From a virus: 34,264 nucleotides of DNA. Below, piece after piece: positions 3,557-34,264 of this stretch. Where the stretch lies: the IMG/VR virus record IMGVR_UViG_3300036760_000621, positions 1 to 34,264 of that record; one strand, written 5' to 3'. Each line of letters opens with the position of its first letter. Within the stretch, counting starts at the first letter, position 1. Below the pieces are notes generated by a model. It was given only the letters and a program-made list of their open reading frames with translations, did no database searches and was not told where the DNA came from. The position numbers were made by a program, and so were the translations under genes.

Positions 3557-3632
3557 TGGCTCCCGAGGTTGGACTCGAACCAACGACCTAATGGTTAACA
3601 GCCACGTGCTCTACCAACTGAGCTACTCAGGA
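3557..3632 (-). tRNA. tRNA-Asn (GTT), CCA encoded
   Basis: A 76-nt cloverleaf on the minus strand: acceptor TCCTGAG/CTCGGGA, D-arm GCTC/GAGC, anticodon loop CTGTTAA, T-arm GTTGG-TTCGAGT-CCAAC, discriminator G, and an encoded CCA. Anticodon GTT reads the Asn codons AAC and AAT, which are frequent in this AT-rich genome. The anticodon stem CGTGG/CCATT is weak: one C-U mismatch at 27-43 and a G-U pair at 28-42. It is the last element of the leftward operon that starts near 6514 and would be cut out of that transcript. Confidence 0.93.
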
Positions 3633-6555: not shown

Positions 6556-6584
6556 AGTATATAACAATTAATAACTATAGTCAA
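6556..6584 (-). promoter_or_regulatory. Strong leftward sigma70-type promoter
   Basis: Read on the minus strand: TTGACT, 17 bases, TATACT. The spacer ends AATTGTTA, the same block found at the leftward promoter 33695-33722. Transcription would start near 6549 and serve the operon from 6514 to the tRNA. Confidence 0.75.
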
Positions 6585-6600
6585 TAGATTATATGAAATA

Positions 6601-6710
6601 ATTTTCTTAATTGTCTTATTTGTCCTAATTGTCGTGACTTGTCGTCTTAATGTCTTCTTATTTGCTTATTGTCTTCTTAATGTCTTCTTAATGGTGAACA
6701 TGGTGAACTT
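6601..6710. repeat. Phased TTGTC repeats and ATGGTGAAC tandem repeat
   Basis: TTGTC or ATGTC occurs at 6611, 6620, 6629, 6639, 6650, 6669 and 6680, that is every 9-11 bases (one degenerate position near 6661). ATGGTGAAC is then repeated head to tail at 6691-6708. The block lies between two divergent promoters and 90 bases before the small terminase gene. Possible uses: packaging-recognition site for the small terminase, or a cooperative operator controlling both promoters. Confidence 0.6.
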
Positions 6711-6751: not shown

Positions 6752-6780
6752 TTGCCATCTGCGTATAAATTTAATACAAT
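6752..6780 (+). promoter_or_regulatory. Rightward promoter for the packaging and structural genes
   Basis: TTGCCA at 6752-6757, 17 bases, TACAAT at 6775-6780. Transcription would start near 6787, leaving only about 10 bases before ATG 6798. That favours use of the second in-frame ATG at 6810, or leaderless-like initiation. Confidence 0.65.
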
Positions 6781-22312: not shown

Positions 22313-24316
22313 ATGGCAAATATTCGATATGATCAAGAACCCGCACTTGTAGGTAATCTAATTCCCACGGATACGTTTTGCGTAACGCGCTTTCCCTTTG
22401 GTGCCACTGCGCCTTTTCAAAAATGTACACTATTAAATACACAAGTGTATATGGAGAATAATTTATATTTATCCGGTGTAGCTGATCCAACAACAGCAAC
22501 GGTGGGTTTTTTAGGTCAGACTTATGTAAACACAACCGCTAATACGTATTTCATTTGTACGGATATTACAGGAATTGTATATACATGGGTAAGTTCGTCA
22601 CCCATTACCGATGCAGCATTACTATGGGATGCCACCACCAATACACCTACCTTAGTAAGTAGTGTCGGTACGGAAGGTGATGTTTATATTGTAAGTGTAG
22701 CAGGAAATACGATATTGAATGGTTTTGGAAATTGGTTGACAGGACAAGCCGTTATTTTTACTGCTGGTGGTTGGACAAAACAACCCGCATTACAACCGCT
22801 CTCTATTCCTTACTCAAATAGTGTTGGAAATTTAATATCGGACGCAAATTTTTTAGCTTCTGATGCTCCGGGAAAAGCTATTTCAATAAATGATGCATCG
22901 ACGACGACATCTGTAGATGCAATATCAATCAAATCACCCTTTAATGCGAGTATTGAAGTTTCTAATCAAGCTGTGGGTATATTTAAATCGTACGCTAATG
23001 CACAAAATCATTTTTCTACGTATAGTTTAGGTGCGCGAGGAACCAAGAGTGCTCCGCTTATTGTTAATAATGGCGATGTGGTGGGTTCGCATTACTTTGG
23101 TGGTTATGATGGTGCAACATTTCGTTTAAGTTCTGCGATTGTAAGTCGAATTGACGGAGTGCCATCTCTAGGAAATATAAAATCCAATTTAGAGTTTTCA
23201 GTAGCTTCTGGAATGGGGCTTGTTATTCGATCAGATATGTATGGGCAATATAATGATTTATTTCGTGTTACAAAATCCATAGCAACAGGCGCAGTCCCTG
23301 CTACAGTTTTCGATCCACAAATGTTTTTCTACCCAGGAAAAGCAGCATTTAGAGCAGGTCAAGTTAATGGCGTCCAATGGAATAATAGTATTATTGGGAC
23401 ACACTCTTCTTCATTTGGAGAAAATTGTACCGCTTCAGGCAGTTGGTCATTTTCATCGGGTCAAAATACGACTGCCGCAGGCAATTGGTCATTTTCATCG
23501 GGTCAAAATACGACTGCGTTAGGTAACTGGTCATTTGCGGCACTTTTAAATGCCTCAGCGTCTGCTATATATAGTGCGGCTATGGGATTAAATGCGATTG
23601 CATCGTTCGAAGGTGCAATTGCATTAGGTGGCTTTGGTTCAGTTGCATCAGGACAAGCATCTGCCACTATGGGGGGTAATGGTAATACATCATCTGGGGT
23701 ATTAACGGCTACGGTAGGTGGTGGATTAAATACAAATGCGGGAACATTTTCAACAATTGTAGGGAGCGTAGGTTGCAGTACGGCAAGTGGTGTTTTTATT
23801 GGAACTATTATCGGCGGACAAGGCAATCTTTTGACGGGTACATCGAGTAATTCTACCGCAATCGGTTCAAATTGTACGATATCGAATAATAATGTAGTAA
23901 TGGTTGGTGCTTCATCAATAGCGATGTCATCAACGACCGATCAAACATTTATTATTAATGCGCCAAATGGAACAGGCGTAAGTACAAATACGCCGATTTC
24001 TACATTATCCGTAAATGGAACGGTTAACTGTGCAACAGTGACTGTGAGTGCGGACTTTACTACATCGACGACGAAATGTAAGGCGATATTTGTAAATACG
24101 ACCACGCTAGCTATTACTATTACATTAGCATCCACTGATGCTGTTAATGGACGAGAATATTTTGTTAAAGACAAATCTAATAATGCATTTACAAATAATA
24201 TTACCATTACACCCAATGGTGGAAAAACAATAAATGGTGTGGCATCTGTTACAATAACTGTAAGCGGTGGTTCATTTTTTATTTTTTCTGATGGTACAAA
24301 CTGGTATACAAATTAA
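22313..24316 (+). CDS. Tail fibre / adhesin with YadA-like head repeats
   Basis: 667 aa. N-terminal 150 residues include phage-fibre-like strands (ADPTTATVGFLGQTYVNTTA, NTYFICTDITGIVYTWV). Residues about 350-530 are a run of 14-residue repeats of the YadA/Hep_Hag head type: 'ASGSWSFSSGQNTTA', 'AAGNWSFSSGQNTTA', 'ALGNWSFAALLNASA', then 'AIALGGFGSVASGQA' and so on, which fold as a left-handed trimeric beta-roll. The last about 100 residues are beta-rich (TISVADFTTS-like, ending FFIFSDGTNWYTN). It would be a trimeric fibre exposing a receptor-binding tip. Starts after TATAGGTGATAT. Confidence 0.8.
   Translation: MANIRYDQEPALVGNLIPTDTFCVTRFPFGATAPFQKCTLLNTQVYMENNLYLSGVADPTTATVGFLGQTYVNTTANTYFICTDITGIVYTWVSSSPITDAALLWDATTNTPTLVSSVGTEGDVYIVSVAGNTILNGFGNWLTGQAVIFTAGGWTKQPALQPLSIPYSNSVGNLISDANFLASDAPGKAISINDASTTTSVDAISIKSPFNASIEVSNQAVGIFKSYANAQNHFSTYSLGARGTKSAPLIVNNGDVVGSHYFGGYDGATFRLSSAIVSRIDGVPSLGNIKSNLEFSVASGMGLVIRSDMYGQYNDLFRVTKSIATGAVPATVFDPQMFFYPGKAAFRAGQVNGVQWNNSIIGTHSSSFGENCTASGSWSFSSGQNTTAAGNWSFSSGQNTTALGNWSFAALLNASASAIYSAAMGLNAIASFEGAIALGGFGSVASGQASATMGGNGNTSSGVLTATVGGGLNTNAGTFSTIVGSVGCSTASGVFIGTIIGGQGNLLTGTSSNSTAIGSNCTISNNNVVMVGASSIAMSSTTDQTFIINAPNGTGVSTNTPISTLSVNGTVNCATVTVSADFTTSTTKCKAIFVNTTTLAITITLASTDAVNGREYFVKDKSNNAFTNNITITPNGGKTINGVASVTITVSGGSFFIFSDGTNWYTN
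23443..23517 (+). repeat. 33-bp exact direct repeat coding for adhesin units
   Basis: A 33-base block beginning TTGGTCATTTTCATCGGGTC is identical at 23443-23475 and 23485-23517, 42 bases apart (14 codons, one YadA-type unit). It indicates recent unit duplication and could vary in copy number. Confidence 0.85.
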
Positions 24317-26712: not shown

Positions 26713-27205
26713 AAGCATTATCAGCAATGTGGCGCCTGTTATTGGAACTGCACTGGGTTCCCCGTTAATCGGGGCAGCTATTGCCGCCATTAGTACTGCA
26801 TTATTTGGCAACCCTAATGCCACTCCGGATAAAATCCTAAAAGATTTAAATGTAAACACAGAAGAATGCCTTGTTAAATTACAACAAGCGGATAATGATT
26901 TTAAAATAAAAATACAACAATTAGATATTGATTTAGAAAAATTAAGTTATGACGACAAAGCCGATGCTAGATCAATGAATGAAAAAGCATTTAAGGCGAG
27001 TTTTTTAAATCGTAATATTACACCTATACTTGCTTTGCTTATTACATTTGGTTTCTTTTCAACGATGGTTGCATTAATGTTTGTGAATATTGATGCAGAT
27101 GCAAAAGGCTCTGTAGATATCCTAAGTGGCGCATTAGGAATGGCTTTTTCGATTATCTTGGGTTTTTATTTTGGTAGTTCTATTGGATCGCTTAATAATC
27201 GATAA
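26687..27205 (+). CDS. Holin, probable three-TM-type
   Basis: 172 aa with a hydrophobic N-terminal segment (VAPVIGTALGSPLIGAAIAA and following), a long charged helical middle (residues about 55-110, EECLVKLQQADNDFKIKIQQ), then two membrane spans (ITPILALLITFGFFSTMVAL and GALGMAFSIILGFYFG). This resembles the Pfam Holin_3TMs group ('R..TP.la......f'). It overlaps the lysozyme gene and would make the membrane lesion that releases it. The stop lies 14 bases into the converging sigma-like gene. No spanin gene was found next to it. Confidence 0.8.
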   Translation: MNKTSTAIKSIISNVAPVIGTALGSPLIGAAIAAISTALFGNPNATPDKILKDLNVNTEECLVKLQQADNDFKIKIQQLDIDLEKLSYDDKADARSMNEKAFKASFLNRNITPILALLITFGFFSTMVALMFVNIDADAKGSVDILSGALGMAFSIILGFYFGSSIGSLNNR

Positions 27206-27791
27206 ATTCTTTTTTCATATGTGGAAAATCTCTAATTTTTCTTAACGCTTTAAATTCTATTTGTCGTACTCTTTCTGTGCTTATATCCAGTTGTTTAGAA
27301 ATATCGTCTAATGATTTTTCTCCACAATCATTAAGGCCATACCTGTACGTTAGAATCGTTGCTTGTCTTGGTGTTAAATAAGATAATGCATTATTTATTC
27401 TATTTTTTAAATTATGTGAATCAACTTCCTCATCAAGAGATTTATTTTCTATATATAATCCATTAACGTCAGATGTCATTAATTGCTTGATATCATTCAT
27501 TGATAATTTTAATTGGCTCGTATTTTTATTTAATTTTAAAGTTAATTGTTCTTTAGTAAATAATTCACACGGAGCACATCCTAATATTTCCATTAATTTT
27601 TTTGCAGCCGGACAAAATTGCCCATTAAATTCATTAATGGGTCTTATACGCATTGTGACTAACTCATCAAAATACTGAGTTCTAACACCGTTATCTCTTG
27701 CAAACTCCGTCAAATATTTATAACCTCTTTTTTCTATTGCCTCCATGATTAAATTATTTCGTACAGATACCTTTACACGAATTTCTTTCAT
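27192..27791 (-). CDS. XRE-like HTH fused to sigma70 region 4
   Basis: 199 aa. N-terminal part (about 10-80) reads as a Cro/C1-type HTH domain: 'NNLIMEAIEKRGYKYLTEFA', then RDNGVRTQYFDELVTMRIRP and AAKKLMEILGCAPCELFTKE. The C-terminal 70 residues are sigma70 region 4: 'LSYLTPRQATILTYRYGLND', CGEKSLDDISKQLD, then ISTERVRQIEFKALRKIRD, the sigma-70 region 4.2 signature. Regions 2 and 3 are absent, so it cannot be a complete sigma factor; it could tether RNA polymerase at a specific promoter. Last gene of the leftward operon, convergent with the holin. Such two-domain proteins are known in some phages as predicted genes, with no assigned function that I know. Confidence 0.82.
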   Translation of the reverse strand: MKEIRVKVSVRNNLIMEAIEKRGYKYLTEFARDNGVRTQYFDELVTMRIRPINEFNGQFCPAAKKLMEILGCAPCELFTKEQLTLKLNKNTSQLKLSMNDIKQLMTSDVNGLYIENKSLDEEVDSHNLKNRINNALSYLTPRQATILTYRYGLNDCGEKSLDDISKQLDISTERVRQIEFKALRKIRDFPHMKKEFIDY

Positions 27792-27793
27792 AT

Positions 27794-28045
27794 TTAATCC
27801 AAATCATTAACATTGTATTCTTTTAAAATCTCGTAAATAGCATTTAATATTTTTTCAGCTAAATCGTATTGTTCCTGTGTTTCTAATTTTATCATATAGG
27901 AAGAGCTTTCTTCATATTTTAAAAGCGATCTAGAAAGTTGACGTATATCAGAAATGGCGCCTGCCATATCATTAAATCGTATTGCACGTTTATAGCAAAA
28001 CGAATCATCTTCATCATTTAAATCAAATTTAAGTATTGCTTTCAT
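27794..28045 (-). CDS. Hypothetical helical protein, 83 aa
   Basis: Not recognised. An acidic start (MKAILKFDLNDEDDSFCYKR) is followed by predominantly helical sequence (DMAGAISDIRQLSRSLLKYE) and a C-terminal helix (QYDLAEKILNAIYEILKEYN). Such sequences occur in phage genes named only as hypothetical. It is translated from an AAAAGAAAAG site overlapping the previous gene by 17 bases and precedes the sigma-like gene by two bases, so it may be co-expressed with it. Confidence 0.55.
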   Translation of the reverse strand: MKAILKFDLNDEDDSFCYKRAIRFNDMAGAISDIRQLSRSLLKYEESSSYMIKLETQEQYDLAEKILNAIYEILKEYNVNDLD

Positions 28046-33605: not shown

Positions 33606-33696
33606 TTATGTTTTTAGCAGAAGAAATTTAAGTAACTTTCTATGTTGGTAGTGATATCAACCGAATGAGGAATAAATTCTTCTGCTAAAAACATAA
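33606..33696. repeat. Perfect 20-bp inverted repeat in the divergent early control region
   Basis: The arm at 33606-33625 (TTATGTTTTTAGCAGAAGAA) is the exact reverse complement of 33677-33696, with 51 bases between. The right arm starts at the -10 box of the leftward promoter, so transcription begins within it and the 5' RNA could fold back on the left arm just before the ribosome site at 33586. It can act as an operator pair or as an RNA hairpin. Confidence 0.8.
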
Positions 33697-33722
33697 TATA
33701 ACAATTGAAACCCATCTGTCAA
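33695..33722 (-). promoter_or_regulatory. Strong leftward early promoter
   Basis: Read on the minus strand: TTGACA at 33722-33717, 16 bases, TATATT at 33700-33695. The spacer ends AATTGT before the -10, as at 6556-6584. Transcription would start near 33688, inside the inverted repeat. Confidence 0.75.
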
Positions 33723-33804: not shown

Positions 33805-33984
33805 ATGGATAAAAAGGCTTATACAATTAAAGAGTTTTGTAACATGTACGGAATTAAATTGCCTTATTATTTTCATCTACAAAAAACAGGCCGCGCCCCC
33901 TCGGTCTTAAAGTTAGGTAGAAAGGTATTTATTCCTGTAGAAGCAATAAAAGAATGGGAAGAGAAGCATCTAAAGACATTATAG
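33805..33984 (+). CDS. Small HTH protein, AlpA/excisionase-like, 59 aa
   Basis: MDKKAYTIKEFCNMYGIKLP is followed by YYFHLQKTGRAPSVLKLGRK and VFIPVEAIKEWEEKHLKTL: a winged HTH of the AlpA / excisionase (MerR-like HTH_17) type, where 'y.i.Efc..yGis....y.l...G..P....lGrr..I...a...W' is the signature. Likely a DNA-binding regulator of the divergent early promoters; without an integrase in the window an excisionase role is unlikely. Strong site GGAGGATAA before the ATG. First gene of the rightward early unit, 13 bases before the O-like initiator. Confidence 0.8.
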   Translation: MDKKAYTIKEFCNMYGIKLPYYFHLQKTGRAPSVLKLGRKVFIPVEAIKEWEEKHLKTL

Positions 33985-33997
33985 ACAGGGGGTTTTT

Positions 33998-34264
33998 ATG
34001 TCTAAACCTTGGTTTAGATTTTATACAGAATTTTATCACGATCCAAAAGTACAAAGTATGTCAGAGGAAATGCAACGGCGTTTAGTGATGTTATTTTGTC
34101 TATATGGATGTAACGTTTCTGAAACGTTACATGAAACAGACATCGCTTTTTCGATGCGGATCGATTTGGATCAAATGATCCAAACACGCGATCTATTTTT
34201 GAAAAAAGGATTCATCGAGATAGTTAATGAAAAATGGGTTGTAAAAAATTGGAATAAACGACAA
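33998..34264 (+). CDS. Replication initiator, O-like, N-terminal part (continues at window start)
   Basis: The first 89 codons of a phage replication initiator run off the right edge and continue in the same frame at base 1. The N-terminus (MSKPWFRFYTEFYHDPKVQS) and the segment ending in VVKNWNKRQ are typical of lambda-O-like or DnaD-like winged-helix initiators, in which a W-x-K-R-Q-F-x-S-D-S-S-T-x-R motif follows; that continuation is exactly what is encoded at the window start. The role inferred is binding origin repeats and recruiting the partner protein encoded next. The ATG follows GACAGGGGGT, a usable ribosome site, 13 bases after the stop of the small HTH gene. The gene itself contains a perfect GTAACGTTTC/GAAACGTTAC palindrome at 34110-34130 that may be part of the origin. 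The family assignment rests on motif memory, not on a search. Confidence 0.75.
   Translation, partial: MSKPWFRFYTEFYHDPKVQSMSEEMQRRLVMLFCLYGCNVSETLHETDIAFSMRIDLDQMIQTRDLFLKKGFIEIVNEKWVVKNWNKRQ
34110..34130. repeat. Perfect 10-bp-arm palindrome with iteron core
   Basis: GTAACGTTTC, one base T, then GAAACGTTAC: both arms are exact reverse complements and carry the same GAAACGTT core as the iterons at 70-102. It lies in the initiator coding sequence. It may be an additional initiator-binding site of the origin. Confidence 0.5.

Follow-up and report, generated by a model that had tools for sequence, protein, structure and literature searches.

Many phages without an RNA polymerase of their own have no recognisable late-gene switch, and the question raised by one locus in the IMG/VR virus record IMGVR_UViG_3300036760_000621 is whether its product could be such a switch. 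The record, a stretch of 34,264 bases called the window here, holds a gene whose product joins a Cro/C1-type (XRE) DNA-binding domain to a region 4 of sigma70 (sigma4). Both domains are individually known, as are lone sigma4-like phage regulators; their fixed fusion is apparently undescribed. We found that the two-domain architecture is fixed in a family of phage proteins, that sigma regions 2 and 3 are absent, that the gene lies in the early or replication module, and that the records searched hold no phage RNA polymerase and no sigma region 2 partner. The reading we favour, with a probability of about 0.5, is a phage transcription factor that would redirect or activate host RNA polymerase at phage promoters in one protein; polymerase contact, operator binding, activation and a late target are the parts of it that we infer. 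An earlier note on this DNA, made from its letters alone, had proposed that the protein redirects or blocks the host polymerase. Both are plausible, and redirection is the leading reading.

A sigma70 region 4 at the C-terminus

27192-27791 (-): XRE-sigma4 fusion gene, ATG start, 199 aa, stop codon at 27192-27194; from the open reading frame and 54 aligned full-length homologues
27198-27437 (-): sigma70 region 4 (4.1 and 4.2), residues 119-198; from Pfam, a profile comparison with RpoD/SigA in the PDB, and AlphaFold2
27252-27278 (-): recognition helix of sigma 4.2, residues 172-180 (TERVRQIEF); from alignment with RpoD

The earlier note had recognised a region 4.2 signature at the C-terminus and no region 2 or 3, and both observations held. 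Pfam Sigma70_r4 matched residues 135-187 (E 2.2e-15; 56 bits, cut-off 24), and the family profile matched region 4 of solved RpoD/SigA structures (E ~1e-31). Neither Sigma70_r2 nor Sigma70_r3 matched the window protein or appeared in the Pfam families reported for the 54 members, and by these sequence searches regions 2 and 3 are missing from the fusion protein. Region 4.1 and helix 5 were RpoD-like in the alignments and the profile. In sigma region 4, the beta-flap contacts come from helices H1, H2 and H5 (PMC2988021). Region 4.1 and helix 5 lie around these contact parts, and their likeness to RpoD was counted in favour of polymerase docking.

A predicted Cro/C1-type domain at the N-terminus

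27561-27755 (-): Cro/C1-type (XRE) domain, residues 13-77; from Pfam in family members, hhalign and five predicted helices
27657-27716 (-): helix-turn-helix within the XRE domain (residues 26-45), with its recognition helix at about 37-45, the most variable part of the domain; from AlphaFold2 and entropy
27438-27560 (-): linker, residues 78-118, with a predicted strand at 91-96 and helix at 98-106; 111-116 of low confidence (AlphaFold2)

Residues 1-110 of the window protein gave no Pfam match on their own, so the Cro/C1 reading, which the earlier note had given for the first ~80 residues, is not visible in the single sequence and rests on the family. There it was borne out in three ways. Among 52 N-terminal domains of the family, Pfam matched HTH_26 (Cro/C1-type) in 13, HTH_35 in five and HTH_3 in five; HTH_31 was also matched in others, HTH_26 exceeded its curated cut-off in member L047, and neither Sigma70_r2 nor Sigma70_r3 was among the families listed. 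With an independent XRE profile, made from bacterial genes picked by Pfam HTH_3 or HTH_26 from four genomes, hhalign scored the family N-terminus at 96% (E 5e-9, 61 columns), versus 4.7% with a profile of RpoD regions 2-3 built on 78 rpoD genes; reversed-profile controls stayed below 1%. On this comparison we rejected the reading of the N-terminus as a sigma region 3. The N-terminal profile gave marginal matches only against PDB sequences, the fourth being the EnrR repressor (E 0.99).

The structure prediction that the earlier note had proposed was run with the 54-member alignment and reached a pLDDT of 90.7. The AlphaFold2 model has a strand at 4-9, helices at 13-21, 27-33, 38-45, 61-70 and 74-77, a strand at 91-96, a helix at 98-106, the linker, and sigma4 from residue 119, that is, a five-helix N-terminal domain followed by region 4. 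It replaced a single-sequence model that was poor (pLDDT 56) and whose fold matches were uninformative. On the family profiles and the predicted fold, residues 13-77 form a Cro/C1 (XRE) domain of five helices.

The fusion is fixed in a widespread, apparently undescribed family

Homologues were retrieved twice. The first retrieval began from degenerate patterns of region 4, whose hits were then confirmed by tblastn of the full-length protein, and yielded 77 viral contigs with colinear full-length homologues at 24-42% identity; the remaining three loci were RpoD. Its 54 non-redundant full-length members make up the family alignment. Because retrieval through region 4 would bias any claim about region 4, the second retrieval used N-terminal domains only, from two clades, and the presence of sigma4 was scored by a hidden Markov model made exclusively from bacterial rpoD. 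All 160 loci carried the N-terminal domain and 154 had sigma4 within the same open reading frame; in the other six the frame stops at the contig edge, so that sigma4 was present in 154 of 154 complete genes. Both retrievals combined cover ~206 distinct IMG/VR contigs by name, and a chance architecture is excluded since the fusion is kept across about 200 of them.

In the N-terminally retrieved set, mean entropy was 1.02 bits for sigma 4.2 residues 172-180 versus 2.44 bits for XRE residues 37-45, and E173, R174, R176, Q177 and E179 were each 90-97% conserved. These values replace the invariance of ERxRQIE in the first alignment, which was partly an artefact of retrieval, the motif being the search pattern. 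A constant sigma4 and a variable XRE helix are as expected if sigma4 meets a nearly unchanging host partner and the XRE domain meets phage-specific sites.

Outside these contigs the family was rarely met. Searching for close relatives with the window protein alone returned nothing, and tblastn with four different members found no family member in 50,697 catalogued phage records, a search that distant members could escape. The matches it did give in that collection look like bacterial RpoD genes or fragments within phage records, and full-length phage sigmas, rather than relatives. A made-up probe sequence likewise matched only RpoD and phage sigmas of full length, among them gp2 of Salisaeta phage, which has a region 2, and it was not used as evidence; in a scan of genome contigs, rpoD matches swamped everything. 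Plasmids gave no match. The fusion was present in one of 369 genomes sampled from the class of a Pseudomonas species, inside a prophage. BFVD held two structural-model relatives, one of them a 200-aa protein of an uncultured marine virus titled 'Sigma-70 region 3 domain protein', so that single members can carry misleading names in public databases. Matches to PHROG regulator families were partial and confined to the sigma4 region. The fusion is not described in the open-access full-text literature, which is weak evidence of absence. Together these searches indicate a fixed and widespread phage protein family that is apparently undescribed.

Position of the gene in the window and in relatives

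27794-28045 (-): neighbouring gene, 83 aa, directly upstream in the same leftward early block; matches no known family

The window looks like an entire podovirus genome opened at an arbitrary point. Its replication-initiator (DnaD-like) open reading frame is divided between the record ends, exiting at 33998-34264 and entering as an open frame at 1-408, which suggests a complete, circularly permuted genome. The plus strand carries genes for a P22-like portal, terminase, head, tail fibre and lysozyme; its kin among catalogued phages are distant, with portal identity of at most 28%. On the minus strand, 27.2-33.6 kb holds recombination genes (a Sak4-like annealing ATPase and a possible single-stranded DNA-binding protein) and small genes without assignment. 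The fusion gene is the final gene of this leftward early block and converges on the lysis genes. It starts 2 nt past the stop of the 83-aa gene and is preceded by a GGA stretch, a candidate ribosome site.

In relatives with a DNA polymerase A (G001, G003, G006, G015, G020 and others) the fusion gene stands beside replication genes in the same orientation, and VRR-NUC-like and Cas4-like genes are also found near it. In G026, which has a P22-like portal in common with the window, it precedes the terminase genes by ~6 kb on their strand, and in G014 it sits between the large terminase and portal genes. The prophage, in a genome of 62% GC (G366:C13, ~222-246 kb, L420-L422), has it upstream of terminase on the same strand, together with a portal gene and a gene reading as a large serine recombinase; its fusion gene and the one in IMG/VR contig G021 share 96% identity, and many of its genes match those of G021 and G024 at >90% identity.

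The earlier note had seen no phage RNA polymerase in the window, and a search for PF00940 (T7-type RNA polymerase) agreed, finding none in the window and 30 relatives, some of them fragments, with a positive T7 control. PF04542 (sigma region 2) was absent from the window and 20 relatives with positive controls, some of these records again being fragments. No tyrosine integrase was found in 31 records, and no integrase among the window genes searched.

Candidate promoters and repeats

6595-6695 (+): candidate control site, two adjoining direct-repeat arrays with 9- and 11-bp units (6599-6693), with seven WTGTC cores at 6611-6684, upstream of the terminase (late) operon
6752-6780 (+): candidate late promoter, TTGCCA-17-TACAAT, ahead of the gene for the small terminase (6798); consensus match 10/12
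33693-33722 (-): candidate early promoter, TTGACA-18-TATTAT (or 16-TATATT), of the leftward block; consensus match 11/12, the best of the region

The earlier note had named the DNA at 6556-6584, 6752-6780 and 33695-33722 for binding tests. All three are promoter sites that score near the top and lie within the pair of divergent intergenic regions, but promoter-like sites in the whole window were not more numerous than in shuffles, which weakens this part of the case. Between the divergent promoters ahead of the terminase operon lies the repeat array at 6595-6695. Seven WTGTC cores in 75 bp were reached by none of 1000 shuffles, and the array's Tandem Repeats Finder (TRF) score of 66 was equalled in one of 200. 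We hypothesise a link between this array and the fusion protein; an origin or a packaging site would explain the array equally well.

Near the other end of the window, an inverted repeat (33606-33628 and 33674-33696; 23-nt arms, 96% complementary, 45 nt apart) overlaps the best leftward early promoter and is possibly an operator, an origin or a leader hairpin.

The earlier note had called the fusion gene the only strong candidate for a transcription switch. That claim is weaker than it was put there, as a 59-aa protein at 33805-33984 (+), MDKKAYTIKEFCNMYGIKLPYYFHLQKTGRAPSVLKLGRKVFIPVEAIKEWEEKHLKTL, with a helix-turn-helix of AlpA/excisionase type by eye, is a second candidate regulator, divergent from the leftward early block.

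Proposed function and the alternatives

In the mechanism we propose, the fusion protein would be made from the last gene of the early operon, and its XRE domain would bind phage operators and keep the protein near a phage promoter. Its region 4 would then be offered to the beta-flap, and to a -35-like sequence, replacing region 4 of the host sigma in the manner of T4 AsiA (PMC6755090), or flanking it. The host sigma would retain its region 2 on the -10 element; it must still provide region 2 and the -10 contact because promoter melting is beyond a lone region 4. The outcome would be a host polymerase switched to phage promoters, with ordinary -35 promoters used less. Late genes are the most likely target of activation. 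More broadly, we suggest tentatively that the family is a widespread, undescribed class of regulators that would appropriate sigma with one protein, an operator binder with a replacement region 4, such that upstream promoter specificity is phage-derived and host region 2 is kept.

If so, the family (~200 viral contigs, podoviruses and a prophage with a serine recombinase) would offer a testable general answer for phages that have neither their own RNA polymerase nor a recognisable late switch. As a single chain it would also lend itself naturally as a tool to retarget bacterial RNA polymerase, and it bears on how a lone region 4 competes with that of the resident sigma.

Several observations weigh against redirection to late promoters. 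In sigma70, R584 and E585 touch positions -31 and -33 within the -35 element, and changes at R584 relax or alter specificity (PMC2613000). The window protein has Thr where sigma70 has R584, and in the N-terminally retrieved set this position is Arg in 84 of 129 and Lys in 23 of 129, thus not Arg in about one third, so that reading of the -35 element may be altered. The relative orientation of the two domains was not confidently predicted (AlphaFold2 pTM 0.56). In relatives the gene is mostly found among replication genes, and a middle-gene or early-shutoff role fits that position as well as a late one. The repeat array of the window was not found in the terminase regions of G026 and G014, and the idea that the family generally has such arrays was rejected. 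Six candidate palindromic operators recurred from one intergenic region to another against a shuffled mean of 5.8, so no recurring palindrome exceeded chance.

The alternative that survives best, although we consider it unlikely, is a repressor or shutoff protein, in which the XRE domain would bind early operators while sigma4 competes for the beta-flap or the -35 sequence, turning early or host promoters off with no activation. XRE domains are mostly repressors, region 4 alone can occupy -35 sites, members match phrog_769, phrog_4 and phrog_9103 with Cro/C1 domains close to known repressor families, and the inverted repeat with 23-nt arms overlaps the candidate promoter of the leftward early block (33693-33722). 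A plain repressor, however, would not need a full region 4, yet this is kept in 154 of 154 genes; a lysogeny repressor in particular is unlikely here, because the 31 records contain no tyrosine integrase.

Improbable in our view is a protein with two DNA-binding heads, whose sigma4-derived helix-turn-helix would bind DNA without contacting RNA polymerase. Its appeal is that the best-conserved part of the family is formed by the base- and backbone-contact residues of region 4.2, but region 4.1 and the C-terminal helix, which lie outside the DNA contact, are likewise RpoD-like. We give still less credence to a split sigma, of which the fusion would be one half and a separate region 2 protein the other, on the pattern of T4 gp55/gp33 or B. 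subtilis SigO/RsoA. A gp33-type half (gp33, PMC7824862) is marked by having region 4 but no region 2, but the PF04542 search, which a very divergent gp55-like protein could escape, gave no such partner. A degenerate ordinary sigma factor with a worn-down region 2.4-3 as its N-terminus is largely refuted: tblastn and phmmer do align residues ~15-187 along RpoD, Foldseek alignments with RpoD span 180-230 columns, and the marine virus protein of similar model bears its region 3 name, but since hhalign favours XRE (and Pfam gives XRE and no r2/r3 matches) these full-length alignments overextend from the true region 4 match, and at a Foldseek root-mean-square deviation of 14-18 Å just one domain superposes on RpoD.

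Comparison with known systems

The fusion protein shares with RpoD/SigA the sequence of regions 4.1 and 4.2, the predicted fold and the ERxRQIE signature; it differs in having no regions 1, 2 and 3 and, in the window, Thr for R584. With Cro/C1 proteins (XRE; HTH_26, HTH_3, HTH_35) it shares a five-helix domain with the helix-turn-helix in register, whereas the strand ahead of the domain and the long C-terminal extension ending in sigma4 set it apart, as does a window sequence that by itself falls below Pfam detection.

Among phage regulators, the late regulator Ltr of Phi13 has direct repeats upstream of its late promoter (PMC13123087), and the window likewise has a non-random direct-repeat array upstream of the terminase promoter. 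RinA, ArpU and Ltr, however, are ~130 aa; Ltr families are said to have no sequence similarity to known bacterial transcription factors, and none is described as an XRE-sigma4 fusion (PMC13123087). Nor does the fusion gene lie directly upstream of the late promoter, as is typical of these regulators, being at 27.2-27.8 kb with the terminase promoter at ~6.75 kb. T4 gp33, a late co-activator whose sigma4-like helix-turn-helix sits on the beta-flap, is also a region-4-like unit without region 2, and the polymerase docking proposed for the fusion would resemble its own; gp33 acts together with gp45 and the sigma region 2 protein gp55, whereas the fusion has an XRE domain and the search for a region 2 partner gave none. 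In T4, AsiA and MotA replace contacts of sigma region 4 (PMC6755090). The fusion would similarly unite a phage DNA-binding domain with the replacement of host sigma region 4 contacts, but in one protein with a true sigma4 domain instead of two unrelated ones.

Other features of the window

A tRNA-Asn gene (anticodon GTT) lies at 3557-3632 (-), in the gap separating convergent gene blocks, and a tandem repeat of a 42-bp unit (2.4 copies) spans 23436-23536 within a tail or baseplate gene.
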